Origin: Bacteroidota bacterium
GTDB taxonomy: Bacteria > Bacteroidota > Bacteroidia > Flavobacteriales_F > PHOS-HE28
Direction: 5' to 3'
DNA: 37,860 nt
NCBI GenBank assembly: GCA_018267155.1
Contig: JAFDZE010000054.1
Coordinates: forward strand, 64,864-102,723
The position numbers and the translations under genes were made by a program. The stretch's first letter is position 1, and every line of letters starts with the position of its first letter. The notes beneath the pieces are model-generated. The model saw nothing but the letters and a program-made list of their open reading frames with translations, was not told the DNA's origin and did no database searches. Of the stretch, positions 1,472 through 33,424 are shown piece by piece.

Positions 1472-3229
1472 TCAGCGCAGCCGCTTCGTGCTCCACCCGT
1501 ACCGCGCTTCGGCGATCTTCATGGCATGCCTGAATGCTGAGTGCGTGCGCAGGAAGTCGTACCGGTCCTCGGCCACTTTGTCGGCGTACTGCGGTAGTGC
1601 GATCAGCTCGCTGAGGATGGGGCGGCACTTGGCGCTGGCCAGGTTGTACAGCAACTTGGTATAGTCCGCGCTCAGCACCATGTCCTTGCCGTGCTCCTCG
1701 GCCAGCTTGTCCGCGTTGTTCTCGTTCAGCAGCGCTTGGCACATCAGGGCGAAGAGCAGCAGCCGCGCCTTGGGCAGGAAGGCGTACTTGGTGGATCCCT
1801 TCTCCACGATCTCACGCGTCATGCGCCCCAACCGCTCCTGGCTCTTGTAGCACAGTACGATCCGCTTGGGATCGGTGTTCAACCGGGCCGCGCTGAACAT
1901 CTGCTCGTACACCTTGTCGTCCTCGAAGGCCGTGCGCATGCTGCGCATCTTGTCGATCTCGCCCTCGCTCGCCAGGAAGGTCTGCGCCAGTTTCAGCAGG
2001 CCGATGGCCTTGCTCTCCACGATGCCGAGTTCTTCCAGCTCCTCGGCCGTGTGCCCTTCGAAGCTGCGCTCCTGCCGTTCGTAAAATATGCCCAATTCAC
2101 GGAAGCGGTCCTGCAGTTGCAGCTGGATCAGGTCGTTGGCCCGCAGGTTCCACGGCTGTATGGGCGTCTGGCGGTTGTTGTTGATGGTGACGCTCACCAC
2201 GAAGTTGTCCGTGGCATCGCTCACCACTTTGGCCAGCACCCGGATCTTCTTCAAGCGCTCCTTCACCCGATTGATGTCCGGATGGTCCTCGTGCTTCACC
2301 AGGAATCGGCCGATGGTGGTAATGGTCTGTGCGCCGTTCAGCAAACGTGGCTCCAGGATGGTCACCTCACCTCCTCCGTTCTGGCTGAATTTCTCGCAAC
2401 TGAAGGTGACGCCGTTGTGGTCGAACAGGAAGCGGCTGGCATCCACGCTCTGGTCCACCAGCATCTGCTTGAAGGCCTTTTCCATGGCCCGGTTGGCGGG
2501 GCTGGTGTCCGGCATGCCATAGCGGATGTTGCGCTCGAAGAAGCGGTCGCCCATGGCCTTGTGCATCTGGTGCAGGTCCCACAGCCGCATGAAGCCCACA
2601 TGCATGGTCTCACTGCCCGGACCACTGGCCTCAAGAACGCTGTCCATGGCCAGGTTGAACTCGCGCGTGCGGTGCTCACGGGCTTCGCTGCTGCGGCCCG
2701 TGCTGCTGCGGTACACCACCACCATGGCCACGCGGCGGCCCCCGAAGTATTCGTTGATCAGGTGCTGCTTGTTCTCCAGGTCCTCGCGCAATTTGTCCAG
2801 CACCGTGCTTCGTTCGGCTTCGGCCGGGTCGCCCAAGAAGATGAACTGGAACACCACGCGCTCGATGCTCTTGGCTTCTTCCTTCAACCGCTTCTTCAGC
2901 AGCCGCATCATCTCCTCATCGGGAGCCGCAGTGCCGAACAACTCGTCCAGCCCGTCGCTGATCAAGGCATCGTAGCCCGTGCGGAACTGGTCGTGCTGGC
3001 GGGTGTGCCGGAAGATGTACAGGTTGAGCGTGCGCTTCTTGGCGTCCAGGTGGAACCCGTCGATGCCGTGGTCGTGCGGGCCGAAGGCGATCTGCTTGGC
3101 CGCCTCTTCGCGGGAGAGTTGCAGTTCCGATTCCAGGTACAGCAGGCCGAAGTAGTCGCTTTGGAAGCCACCGAGTTCGCTGCGGAGTTCCTTGTAAACG
3201 GAGGCGAGTTTGGCCGGGGTGATGGACAT
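1472..3229 (-). CDS. AIPR family protein (abortive infection phage resistance)
   Basis: This 585-residue protein has the central AIPR (PF10592) blocks in order: FFERNIRYGM with SPANRAMEKAF (about 230-253), FLFDHNGVTFSCEKF (about 267-281) and PRLLNGAQTITTIGRF (about 294-309). A further block, VTINNNRQTPIQPWNLRAND, follows. The N-terminal third contains GIDGFHLDAKKRTLNLYIF (55-73), the place where these proteins usually carry a restriction-nuclease-like D...Q/E-x-K strand. Here the strand reads YIFRHTR, so the usual lysine is not evident. Family members are tied to abortive infection in phage defence; the biochemical action is not settled. The gene stands alone between tRNA-Met and cinA, with no restriction or modification partner in the window and no mobile-element gene. 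The start is the ATG at 3229. Its C-terminal end is 102 bases from the tRNA. Confidence 0.85.
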   Translation of the reverse strand: MSITPAKLASVYKELRSELGGFQSDYFGLLYLESELQLSREEAAKQIAFGPHDHGIDGFHLDAKKRTLNLYIFRHTRQHDQFRTGYDALISDGLDELFGTAAPDEEMMRLLKKRLKEEAKSIERVVFQFIFLGDPAEAERSTVLDKLREDLENKQHLINEYFGGRRVAMVVVYRSSTGRSSEAREHRTREFNLAMDSVLEASGPGSETMHVGFMRLWDLHQMHKAMGDRFFERNIRYGMPDTSPANRAMEKAFKQMLVDQSVDASRFLFDHNGVTFSCEKFSQNGGGEVTILEPRLLNGAQTITTIGRFLVKHEDHPDINRVKERLKKIRVLAKVVSDATDNFVVSVTINNNRQTPIQPWNLRANDLIQLQLQDRFRELGIFYERQERSFEGHTAEELEELGIVESKAIGLLKLAQTFLASEGEIDKMRSMRTAFEDDKVYEQMFSAARLNTDPKRIVLCYKSQERLGRMTREIVEKGSTKYAFLPKARLLLFALMCQALLNENNADKLAEEHGKDMVLSADYTKLLYNLASAKCRPILSELIALPQYADKVAEDRYDFLRTHSAFRHAMKIAEARYGWSTKRLR

Positions 3230-3347: not shown

Positions 3348-4655
3348 ATGAAAGAGGTAACCGCCGAGATCATCGCGATCGGGGATGAGATCCTGATCGG
3401 ACAGACCGTGGACACCAATTCGGGCTGGCTCGGCGGCGAGCTGGCCTTGATCGGCATCCGCACCGTGCGTGTGCGTGCCATTGCCGACGACCGATCGGCT
3501 ATCCTGGAGGCGCTGGGCTCCGCGGTCGCCGATATCGTCCTCATTACAGGCGGCCTGGGCCCTACCAGGGACGACCTGACCAAGCAGGTGCTCTGCGAGT
3601 TTTTTGGAACCCGCTTGGTTCACCGGCCCGAGGTGGAACGCCACATCGAAGACCTCTTCCTGCGGATGGGGCGCTCTGCGGCCGAGGTACTCGATGCCAA
3701 CCGTGCCCAGGCCGATCTGCCGGAAAGTTGCACCATCCTGCCCAACAGCCGGGGCACGGCGAGCGGTATGTGGTTCCAGATCCCGCTTCTGCCGGAAACG
3801 AACGTAGGGACCACCACCAATGAAGGCCGGCCCGAGAGGGTCTTCCTCAGCATGCCCGGAGTGCCCTATGAGATGCGTGCCATCATGGGCGACCATGGCC
3901 TGCACAAGCTGCGCGAATGCTTCCGCCCGCCCGCGATCGTTCATCGGACCATCCTGACGGCCGGTATGGGCGAGAGCCAGGTCGCCCGGCTCATTGAAGC
4001 GTGGGAGAACAGTCTGGCCGCGGATGGGATCAAACTGGCCTATCTGCCATCACCGGGCATGCTCCGCCTTCGACTTTCAGCGTACGCCAATGCCGATGCG
4101 GCCGAAGCGCGCCAGCGCGTGGACCGGCAGGCCGAGGCGCTTTACCGGCTCATTCCGGAGCTGATCTTCGGGGAGGGTACGGGTACCTTGGGCCAAGCCG
4201 TGGGCCAGCAGCTGAAGGAGCGTGGACAGACGCTCGCTCTTGCAGAAAGCTGTACGGGTGGCTACTTGAGCCACCTGATCACCGCCATCCCCGGCAGCTC
4301 GAACTATTACATCGGTGGAGTGGTCAGCTACGCGAATGCCGTGAAAATGGAGGAGTTGGGCATCCCCAGCGATATGCTCGAACTGAATGGCGCGGTGAGC
4401 CGACCCGTGGCCGAGCGCATGGCCCAAGGGGTGCGTGCCGCTTTGCGGAGCGATTGGGCTATTGCCACCACAGGCATCGCCGGTCCCGATGGGGGCACGC
4501 CCGACAAGCCCGTGGGAACGGTCTGGCTTGCCGTGGCCGGCCCCGACGGCGTTTCGGCCAAGTTGGGCAACTTTCCCGGCAGTCGCGAGCTGGTGATCGA
4601 ACGGGCGGCCATGAGCGGCTTGAACATGCTGCGCAAACGGCTGATGCTCAGGTAG
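3348..4655 (+). CDS. cinA: CinA family nicotinamide-nucleotide amidohydrolase / competence-damage protein
   Basis: The protein has 435 residues and two domains. The N-terminal part (1-170) is the MoCF-binding-like CinA domain: AEIIAIGDEILIGQTVDTN (6-24) and LITGGLGPTRDDLTK (65-79). The C-terminal part (about 275-435) is the PncC-type nicotinamide mononucleotide deamidase domain, with ESCTGG at 300-305 and TTGIAGPDGGTPDKPVGTVW. Full-length CinA joins an ADP-ribose pyrophosphatase-like domain to the NMN deamidase and is thought to recycle pyridine nucleotides. Competence links are historical and organism dependent. The ATG at 3348 was chosen because MKEVTAEIIAIGDEIL is the standard N-terminus and a promoter-like box lies just upstream. 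An upstream in-frame extension would overlap the divergent AIPR start. It is a single-gene unit. Confidence 0.95.
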   Translation: MKEVTAEIIAIGDEILIGQTVDTNSGWLGGELALIGIRTVRVRAIADDRSAILEALGSAVADIVLITGGLGPTRDDLTKQVLCEFFGTRLVHRPEVERHIEDLFLRMGRSAAEVLDANRAQADLPESCTILPNSRGTASGMWFQIPLLPETNVGTTTNEGRPERVFLSMPGVPYEMRAIMGDHGLHKLRECFRPPAIVHRTILTAGMGESQVARLIEAWENSLAADGIKLAYLPSPGMLRLRLSAYANADAAEARQRVDRQAEALYRLIPELIFGEGTGTLGQAVGQQLKERGQTLALAESCTGGYLSHLITAIPGSSNYYIGGVVSYANAVKMEELGIPSDMLELNGAVSRPVAERMAQGVRAALRSDWAIATTGIAGPDGGTPDKPVGTVWLAVAGPDGVSAKLGNFPGSRELVIERAAMSGLNMLRKRLMLR

Positions 4656-5566: not shown

Positions 5567-6523
5567 ATGGCATTCTTCGGACTGTTCGGCAAGAAGAAAG
5601 AGGCCAAGGAGGAAGCGGCCGAGAAAGAAGCGCTCGACAGTGGGCTGCAGCGCTCGCGCGAAGGCTTCTTGGGCCGCATCGCCCGCGCCGTGGCCGGCAA
5701 GAGCCAGGTGGACGATGAGGTACTGGACCAGTTGGAGGAAACACTGGTGCAGAGCGATGTGGGCGTGGAGACCACGTTGCGCATCATCGGCCGTATCCAG
5801 GAGCGGGTGAAGCGCGACAAGTACGTGGGCACGGCCGAACTCAACGGCATCCTGCGCGACGAGATCGCGGCGTTGATGAAGGATCCAGCACCCGTTGACC
5901 CCGCCATCAAGCCGTACGTGATCATGGTGGTTGGCGTGAATGGTGTGGGCAAGACGACCACCATCGGCAAGCTGGCCCACGCGTTCAAGAAGGAGGGCAG
6001 GAGCGTGCTGCTCGGTGCGGCCGATACGTTCCGGGCCGCCGCCGTGGACCAGTTGCGCATCTGGAGCGAACGGGTCGGCGTTCCGCTGGTGCAGCAAGGC
6101 ATGGGCGCCGACCCCGCTGCCGTGGCCTACGACACTGTGGAGAGCGCCAAGGCCAGGGGTGCCGAGGTGGTCATTATCGATACCGCCGGCCGCCTGCACA
6201 ACAAGACCAGCCTGATGAACGAGTTGACCAAGGTGCGCAATGTGATGCGCAAAGTGGTGCCCGATGCGCCCCACGAGGTCCTGCTCGTCCTGGATGCCAG
6301 CACCGGCCAGAACGCCATCGAGCAGGCCCGACAGTTCACCTTAGCTACCGACGTCACCGCATTGGCGCTCACCAAGATCGATGGGACCGCCAAGGGCGGC
6401 GTGGCCATCGGCATCAGCGACCAGTTCAGCATCCCCATCAAGTACCTCGGGGTGGGTGAGGGTATGGACCATCTGCAGGTGTTCGACAAGCGCGCGTTCG
6501 TGGAAGCGCTCTTCAAGGGCTGA
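5567..6523 (+). CDS. ftsY: Signal recognition particle receptor FtsY
   Basis: This is an SRP-type GTPase of 318 residues. A lysine/glutamate-rich N-terminal stretch (about 8-23) is followed by the helical N domain (about 30-105) and the G domain. G-domain motifs are GVNGVGKTTTIGKLA (123-137, P-loop), DTFRAAAVDQL (153-163), DTAGR (205-209), TKIDGTAKGG (269-278), and GVGEGMDHLQVFD near the C-terminus. FtsY docks SRP-ribosome complexes at the inner membrane. The acidic A domain found in E. coli FtsY is reduced here to about 25 residues, as is common in Bacteroidota. The adjacent ribosomal gene block is typical. A hairpin at 5491-5530 precedes it. Confidence 0.97.
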   Translation: MAFFGLFGKKKEAKEEAAEKEALDSGLQRSREGFLGRIARAVAGKSQVDDEVLDQLEETLVQSDVGVETTLRIIGRIQERVKRDKYVGTAELNGILRDEIAALMKDPAPVDPAIKPYVIMVVGVNGVGKTTTIGKLAHAFKKEGRSVLLGAADTFRAAAVDQLRIWSERVGVPLVQQGMGADPAAVAYDTVESAKARGAEVVIIDTAGRLHNKTSLMNELTKVRNVMRKVVPDAPHEVLLVLDASTGQNAIEQARQFTLATDVTALALTKIDGTAKGGVAIGISDQFSIPIKYLGVGEGMDHLQVFDKRAFVEALFKG

Positions 6524-6633: not shown

Positions 6634-6971
6634 AACGTATGTATGGCCATACATACATCAGGCTATGATAGCACTTGGCGAAGGGCGGATCCGTACGGAT
6701 CAGGCTCGGGGGACCGGCTTTCCGCAAGTCGGTAGCAGAACGTATGTATGGCCATGCATACGTCGGGGTATAAGAGCACCTGGGTGCACTGGGACTCGCA
6801 CGGCTCATGCTCGAGAGCCCGGAGCACAGTAGACATGTGCAGAACATATGTATGGCCATACATACGTCAAGCTGTGGTAGTACCTGACAAAGGATGGCCC
6901 CGTACGGATCGTTCTCGAGAACCCAGTTATCTCCTGGCCCTAGAGAACGTATGTATGGCCATACATACGTC
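6634..6971. repeat. Four-copy array of a 22-bp palindrome in ~104-bp degenerate tandem units
   Basis: The half-site CGTATGTATGG is followed immediately by its reverse complement. The four copies are at 6636-6657, 6741-6762, 6845-6866 and 6948-6969. Copy 4 is perfect and copies 1-3 each have one mismatch. Start-to-start distances are 105, 104 and 103 bases. Flanking AA and TC bases are also conserved. The 80-odd bases between copies are diverged relatives of one another: each begins TCRRGSTRTR and runs through AGYACYTG to an xCGyACGGmTC block. Spacer 1 contains a 14-bp palindrome GATCCGTACGGATC (6688-6701). Spacer 3 contains GTTCTCGAGAAC (6911-6922). The array therefore looks like an old tandem duplication in which the palindrome has been kept while the rest drifted. 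Confidence 0.85.
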
Positions 6972-7386: not shown

Positions 7387-8265
7387 ATGGATCGCAAAGA
7401 CTTCCTCCGGAAAGGCCTGCTGGGCACGGGTATGCTGGCTGCCAGCCCCTTGCTCGCCGACCTGGTGGAGAACGGGATCGATGAACTGCGCCCGCTCGAC
7501 GTTGTCGGCTTCAACCACTTGCCCTCCCCAACACCCCGCATCATGGCAAACACCGTCTTGCACAAGGCCGCCACCAGGGGCGGTGCCGATCACGGCTGGC
7601 TCAAGGCCAAGCACACCTTCAGCTTCGCCAATTACTACGACCCCCAACGCATGCACTTCGGTGTACTGCGCGTGCTCAACGACGACCGCATCGCCGCCGG
7701 CATGGGCTTCGGTACGCACCCGCACGACAACATGGAGATCATCACCATCCCGCTCAGCGGTACCGTGGCCCACAAGGACAGCATGGGCAGCAGTGGTACC
7801 ATCAGTCCCGGCGAGGTGCAGGTGATGAGCGCCGGCACGGGCGTTACGCACAGCGAGTTCAATCACCTGCAGGATGAGGAACTGCGGCTGCTGCAGATCT
7901 GGCTGTTCCCCAACAAGCGTGGAGTGACGCCCCGCTACGATCAGATGAGCTTCGATGTGAAGGACCGCCGCAACAGCCTCCAACAGATCCTCTCACCCAG
8001 GGCCGACGACGCGGGTGTGTGGATCCACCAGAATGCTTGGTTCCACATGGGTACCTTCGACAAGGACTTCAAATTGAGCTACGACCTGAAGGACAGGCGC
8101 AACGGGGTATACGCCTTCGTCATCAAAGGCGATATCACCGTCAATGACACCGCGTTGAACGAGCGCGATGGCCTCGGCGTGTGGGATGCCGCAGCACTGA
8201 CCATCGAGGCCAACAGCCAGGACGCCGAACTGCTCCTGATGGAAGTGCCCATGCAGTTGAACTGA
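7387..8265 (+). CDS. Pirin family protein with Tat-like N-terminal leader
   Basis: The 292-residue reading has a bicupin pirin core. The metal-site signature is GTHPHDNMEIITIPLSG (His111, His113) with VTHSEFN (His155, Glu157), matching the His-x-His ... His-x-Glu ligand set of pirins. If translation instead began at the internal ATG at 7543 (MANTVLHKA), the first two histidines would be residues 59 and 61, close to canonical pirin numbering. The first 52 residues are therefore an extension. They read MDRKDFLRKGLLGTGMLAAS, similar to a Bacteroidota Tat signal (RKDFL in place of RRxFL). Pirins bind iron, and some act as quercetin dioxygenases or redox regulators; no substrate can be inferred here. 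I chose 7387 because the leader looks genuine and a promoter-like box precedes it. Confidence 0.85.
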   Translation: MDRKDFLRKGLLGTGMLAASPLLADLVENGIDELRPLDVVGFNHLPSPTPRIMANTVLHKAATRGGADHGWLKAKHTFSFANYYDPQRMHFGVLRVLNDDRIAAGMGFGTHPHDNMEIITIPLSGTVAHKDSMGSSGTISPGEVQVMSAGTGVTHSEFNHLQDEELRLLQIWLFPNKRGVTPRYDQMSFDVKDRRNSLQQILSPRADDAGVWIHQNAWFHMGTFDKDFKLSYDLKDRRNGVYAFVIKGDITVNDTALNERDGLGVWDAAALTIEANSQDAELLLMEVPMQLN

Positions 8266-33316: not shown

Positions 33317-33424
33317 AAGTAGGGGCGACGAGATCGTCAAGCAGGAGCGACGCGCCAAGCAGGGGCGACGCGGAAAGCAGGAGCGACGCGCCAAGTAGGG
33401 GCGACGAGATCGTCGCCCCTACTT
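33317..33424. repeat. TAGGGGCGA palindrome and 18-base tandem repeats
   Basis: The block consists of AAGTAGGGGCGACGAGATCG (33317-33336) plus TC, then AAGCAGGAGCGACGCGCC, AAGCAGGGGCGACGCGGA and AAGCAGGAGCGACGCGCC (33339-33392). It closes with AAGTAGGGGCGACGA paired to TCGTCGCCCCTACTT (33393-33407 with 33410-33424). The last hairpin has 15 perfect pairs and covers the stop codon of the glycosylphosphotransferase gene (33419-33421). Other bacteria carry dispersed repeats with GTAGGGGCG...CGCCCCTAC ends, and this looks like a member of that kind. It separates the sugar-transferase operon from hbd. Confidence 0.82.

Follow-up and report, generated by a model that had tools for sequence, protein, structure and literature searches.

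The palindrome array downstream of ftsY

The window, i.e. the whole stretch of 37,860 nucleotides analysed here, carries an array of palindromes at 6634-6971. On the upstream side 110 bp separate it from the end of ftsY (5567..6523, + strand), and on the downstream side about 415 bp from the start of a gene of the pirin family (7387..8265, + strand; PF02678, E=4.7e-34); both genes were considered neighbours only. Four near-identical copies of CGTATGTATGGCCATACATACG, each with 0 to 1 mismatch, were located at 6636-6657, 6741-6762, 6845-6866 and 6948-6969, which reproduced the palindromes of the original prediction as well as their spacing of 105, 104 and 103 bp. None of 100 dinucleotide-preserving shuffles contained such an array, and none is expected even at up to 3 mismatches. 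When 146 sites from several genomes were compared, the motif turned out to be 26 bp long (RAHRTATGTATGG|CCATACATAYDTY). Consequently, the sites span 6634..6659 (core TATGTATGGCCATACATA), 6739..6764 (core with one A-to-G change), 6843..6868 (an outer, degenerate position changed from G to A) and 6946..6971 (perfect), none of them assigned to a strand, and their outer ends coincide exactly with the limits initially set for the region. The three unstranded spacers (6660..6738, 6765..6842 and 6869..6945) are mutually related, as had been claimed (shuffle p = 0.003-0.01), and far less alike than the palindromes. Core positions of the motif were invariant over the multi-genome sites and half-site positions varied mostly independently, as with a protein dimer; from ±14 to ±21 the flanks displayed weak base preferences only and no tetranucleotide.

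The array holds no likely gene and matched no Rfam family. Together with spacers of about 80 bp that are related within the array, this agrees with its description as non-coding and not CRISPR-like. Elsewhere in the window we observed a tandem repeat of CAAGCAGGAGCGACGCGC (3.8 copies, 33338-33406) and an AIPR-family gene (1472-3229, - strand; PF10592, E=1.6e-17), the family taking its name from abortive-infection phage resistance.

ftsY was found in 41 of the 45 genomes of the genus. Conservation of the array at the ftsY-pirin locus across relatives was not observed, the array being present at only one of the 30 ftsY loci read, that of the window, and no pirin gene was found in the available post-ftsY sequence of 29 relatives. 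A functional tie to ftsY or pirin was dropped on these grounds.

Related arrays and a MarR-family gene flanked by the same sites

The palindrome is not confined to the ftsY locus. In the genome to which the window belongs (G000; 3.33 Mb, 164 contigs, 82% complete), we counted 17 copies at up to 3 mismatches, with five arrays of two to five copies on contigs C39 (2 sites), C69 (2+3), C114 (the window, 4), C131 (2) and C154 (4, spaced 146-150). Since the assemblies are drafts, many of them from metagenomes, and this one is 82% complete, the copy numbers should be read as lower bounds; genome-wide statistics were obtained by pattern searches. All arrays read in this genome and in G009, G028 and G041 comprised at least two sites each and were intergenic.

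Five of the 17 sites flank a gene (G000:C69:2831-3265) whose product belongs to the MarR family (Pfam PF01047, MarR winged-helix, E=1.6e-16; PDB relatives such as 1lj9, E=6e-12). One palindrome is centred 24 bp upstream of the start codon of this gene and 12 bp upstream of a -7-like box, TATATTGG. Likewise, the TAnnTTTG-like -7 box of the MarR gene is preceded, at 10-13 bp, by a palindrome in G000, G009, G010, G023, G024, G030, G033 and G042, these boxes having been identified by eye in upstream sequences of at least eight genomes.

Beyond the block formed by the MarR gene and its array, roughly 70 bp from the 3' end of an OmpA-family gene recur (G000:C69:2530-2617 and 3545-3619; L027), such as an insertion of the block into the end of the gene, or into a tandem copy, might leave. 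The same genome encodes a second MarR protein of the clade (L063:1501-1905, G000:C105; 47% identical); two palindromes of weaker match, TTTGCGTGGC/TTGTTTGGCC, lie upstream of its gene, and its specificity may be a separate one. A phage or plasmid origin was rejected: the MarR protein had only weak matches (<40% identity) in phages and plasmids, and the 16-bp core matched viral contigs twice, each time as a lone site.

Pairing of MarR proteins and palindromes across relatives

The 45 genomes of the genus were searched for the palindrome pattern WTKYATGGCCATRMAW and for proteins of the MarR clade (profile E <= 1e-20). The pattern occurred at least twice in 14 genomes (2 copies in G006 and 3 to 36 in each of the other 13) and once in G043, and was absent from 30; the reversed control gave zero matches. 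The clade was present in 15 genomes, so that 13 genomes carried both, two MarR only (G016 and G023), one palindromes only (G006) and 29 neither (Fisher p=1.9e-8, a value that overstates independence because the test ignores shared ancestry). As the pattern was built from palindromes first seen beside MarR genes, which favours finding them in those genomes, the lack of matches in 30 MarR-free genomes speaks for this palindrome family only. The conserved two-site locus of G006 is the gap between pyrD and a TonB-receptor gene (L078:2156-2345, G006:C19).

Half-sites differed with the protein encoded beside them. Those accompanying the MarR proteins 55-65% identical to that of the window's genome (G009, G010, G028, G041, G042 and G044) were TATGTATGG, and those of G022, G024, G032 and G033 were TTGCATGG. 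G034 had ATTCATGG and G030 ATGCATGG half-sites, and G023, a MarR-only genome by the searched pattern, carried a palindrome of its own, TCATTTGCTTGTACAAGCAAATGA, on either side of the MarR gene (half-site TTTGCTTGT). In five genomes from other families of the class (G266, G313, G334, G360 and G410), the MarR gene is bracketed by two TTTGTANNTACAAA-type sites, one on each side, and exact copies elsewhere were absent from G313 and G410 and few in G266 and G360, near the level of the reversed control. With few or no further copies in these distant relatives, the expansion into arrays looks special to the genus (13 outside genomes checked).

Conservation, spacing and placement of the arrays

Array positions coincide in G009, G028 and G041, where the same gene pairs enclose them and the flanks are about 75-90% identical; 12-13 loci are common to the three species, and some were also recovered in G006, G010 and G044. 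Over 23 orthologous comparisons, not all independent, 943 of 1056 palindrome positions were identical (89%, somewhat inflated since sites were called by consensus similarity with up to 4 of 18 mismatches), in contrast to 2517 of 3952 spacer positions (64%) and 70% of the 150-bp flanks. The claim that selection acts on the palindrome is supported by these values, and the orthologous loci of relatives show the palindromes changing more slowly than the spacers. Between species, array copy number and spacing change and the palindromes stay. Thus, a reading of the unit as a dispersed element without conserved spacing, which had been set against a function, holds in part: units are dispersed and their spacing varies, but palindromes and loci are conserved. 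The proposal that the sites share one face of the DNA is not supported, as 89 spacings (98-306 bp) from several genomes did not follow the helical repeat (vector strength 0.11 at 10.5 bp); the 105/104/103 regularity is a property of one local tandem array.

In G005, G006 and G012, where most or all arrays are absent, the same neighbour genes are mostly 12-190 bp apart, with exceptions up to 683 bp, and 211 to 1036 bp lie between the aligned flanks in G009, which has the arrays and in which the neighbour genes themselves are 211-952 bp apart. The shorter gaps indicate that the arrays are extra DNA, both gain here and loss there being possible; their flanks were too diverged for junctions, or target-site duplications of the kind left by MITE insertion, to be read. 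In G034, similar 101-bp palindrome pairs lie amid unlike flanks, as a mobile repeat would, which is a sign of dispersal.

An IS256-type (Transposase_mut) gene was observed between two palindromes of one array (L079:31-1332, G010:C41); it is missing from the G044 counterpart (L099), and an IS origin was rejected. Furthermore, an array interior of about 200 bp is conserved (73-86%) and common to two convergent-gene loci (L076:1562-1798 and L105:1532-1768), and had no match in Rfam.

In G009, G028 and G041, an array is situated either between convergent genes or upstream of a -7 box, again identified by eye, at a distance of 32 to about 110 bp, and leaves the -7 region uncovered. Their neighbours, named from the sequences and in some cases scanned against Pfam, are PaaI/thiolase, 3-hydroxyacyl-CoA dehydrogenase/RlmI, AroE/Rrf2, TonB receptor/PyrD, IF-2, FKBP and FolP. 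The MarR block itself adjoins different genes in different lineages.

Discussion

The array after ftsY is probably (at a rough probability of 0.6) one of five or more site clusters bound by the MarR protein encoded at C69:2831-3265, which together would form a lineage-specific nucleoprotein network. That the palindromes are bound by MarR dimers is very probable judging from the sequences, and the original suggestion of an operator array for a dimeric DNA-binding protein receives strong support at that level from the MarR gene lying amid the same sites, the co-occurrence in the genus, the palindromes matched to their proteins and the preservation of palindromes over spacers. One dimer would occupy each 26-bp palindrome. 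The site at the MarR gene, given its position, would span the stretch of promoter that separates the -33 and -7 boxes, and on this basis the protein would repress its own gene and sense its own level or a ligand. Paired sites may be occupied at about 5-14 intergenic loci; at those other than its own gene, two to six sites at intervals of about 100-250 bp could gather several dimers into a joint complex, either a loop or a bridge, bridging by MarR dimers being an assumption. Such complexes would form in intergenic DNA, mostly beside and not over promoters, and would most likely make up a network acting in DNA organisation or in the modulation of promoters nearby. A role at the level of the host is rather likely, and looping or bridging as its mode is put forward tentatively; a nucleoid or partition site, as had also been considered, is possible. 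Counting against the network are G016, where the clade is represented by two MarR genes and the searched pattern gave no site, G006, with its two-site locus and no detectable MarR of the clade, the window array, which has no ortholog in the relatives read, the 101-bp pairs of G034, and flanking genes with no evident common function or pathway.

The main rival is a selfish repeat resembling REPINs, in which palindrome-spacer-palindrome units would be miniature elements spread by some as yet unnamed enzyme and palindrome-MarR-palindrome would be a related, gene-bearing unit; MarR binding would then regulate or protect the units, and a host function would not be needed. The arrays as extra DNA relative to G005, G006 and G012, the dispersed pairs of G034 with their similar interiors, the MarR block beside different genes in each lineage, and the occurrence of sites in doublets and tandem clusters, as in REPINs (PMC3116915), all fit this explanation. 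We nevertheless regard it as unlikely, though a serious contender, because no transposase is common to the MarR blocks, target-site duplications are not demonstrable in the diverged flanks, and, with 12-13 loci shared by G009, G028 and G041 and only the L111 array lacking an ortholog in this set, spread in these species must have been slow, the palindromes nonetheless being conserved site by site.

An ordinary regulon, in which each array would supply operators for the adjacent gene and multiple sites would strengthen repression or activation, also appears improbable. It accords with the fact that MarR proteins are usually repressors and with the many arrays of G009, G028 and G041 that lie upstream of the -7 boxes of paaI, rlmI, pyrD, FKBP and Rrf2 genes. 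However, sites do not overlap the -7 region except at MarR's own gene, arrays occur between convergent genes (L066, L076/L085/L110, L091/L105 and C131 of the window's own genome), the window array is more than 400 bp from the next gene start, and neighbours vary by lineage with no evident shared pathway. Arrays placed off the -7 region or between convergent genes, together with functionally unlike neighbours, led us to prefer a structural or global role over a classical regulon. Very little speaks for the hairpin RNA array that had been envisaged, or for terminators, processing sites, small RNAs or DNA hairpins: the inverted repeats are strong and folding of the region is better than in shuffles (z=-5.7), which is to be expected of perfect palindromes in general, but the palindrome has no loop, the arrays occur in all gene orientations and Rfam returned no match. 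Hairpin and cruciform were rejected because most of the variable arm positions (±5, ±10 and ±13) pair at chance level, i.e. without covariation; pairing exceeds chance at ±9 and, slightly, at ±11, which relatedness of the copies could explain.

MatP/matS and SlmA/SBS are chromosome-organising systems in which a dedicated DNA-binding protein acts on dispersed palindromic chromosomal sites. The MarR arrays share this combination, but they differ in the MarR protein family, in sites clustered in 2-8 copies, in a patchy distribution within one genus and in having no known cell-cycle partner, so that these systems may at most be functional analogues. Autorepressors such as MarR, OhrR, SlyA and MepR share the PF01047 winged-helix domain and a site over their own promoter; they normally have few operators near one or two promoters, in contrast to the 17 to 36 copies in multi-site arrays, partly between convergent genes, of the four genomes considered here. 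REP/REPIN sequences with their RAYT (TnpA-REP) are palindromes scattered through extragenic DNA, for the most part as doublets and tandem clusters, that flank and co-evolve with one gene (PMC3116915). The MarR arrays are similarly extragenic, doublet-dominated palindromes around one co-evolving gene. Unlike REPs, they flank a MarR regulator and not a Y1 (HUH) transposase, their palindromes are loopless and without a GTAG/CGTC tag, and 12-13 of their loci are fixed across three species. Without the Y1 transposase and the tag by which REPIN/RAYT is defined, we do not class them there.

No MarR system with dispersed palindromic arrays was found in the open-access literature searched, and the matched MarR-palindrome pairs of related species point to a little-known DNA-binding network. 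We tentatively propose, as an idea with somewhat less than even chances, a one-gene system in which a MarR protein, in place of a transposase or partition protein, maintains and co-evolves with chromosome-wide paired palindromes gathered into nucleoprotein complexes, i.e. a REPIN-like layout put to use in chromosome organisation or global regulation. An unexplained dispersed repeat is thereby tied to a single DNA-binding protein, and several natural protein-site pairs of differing specificity make recognition and function directly testable. They also offer a test of whether REPIN-like doublets may persist without a transposase because their sites serve the host.
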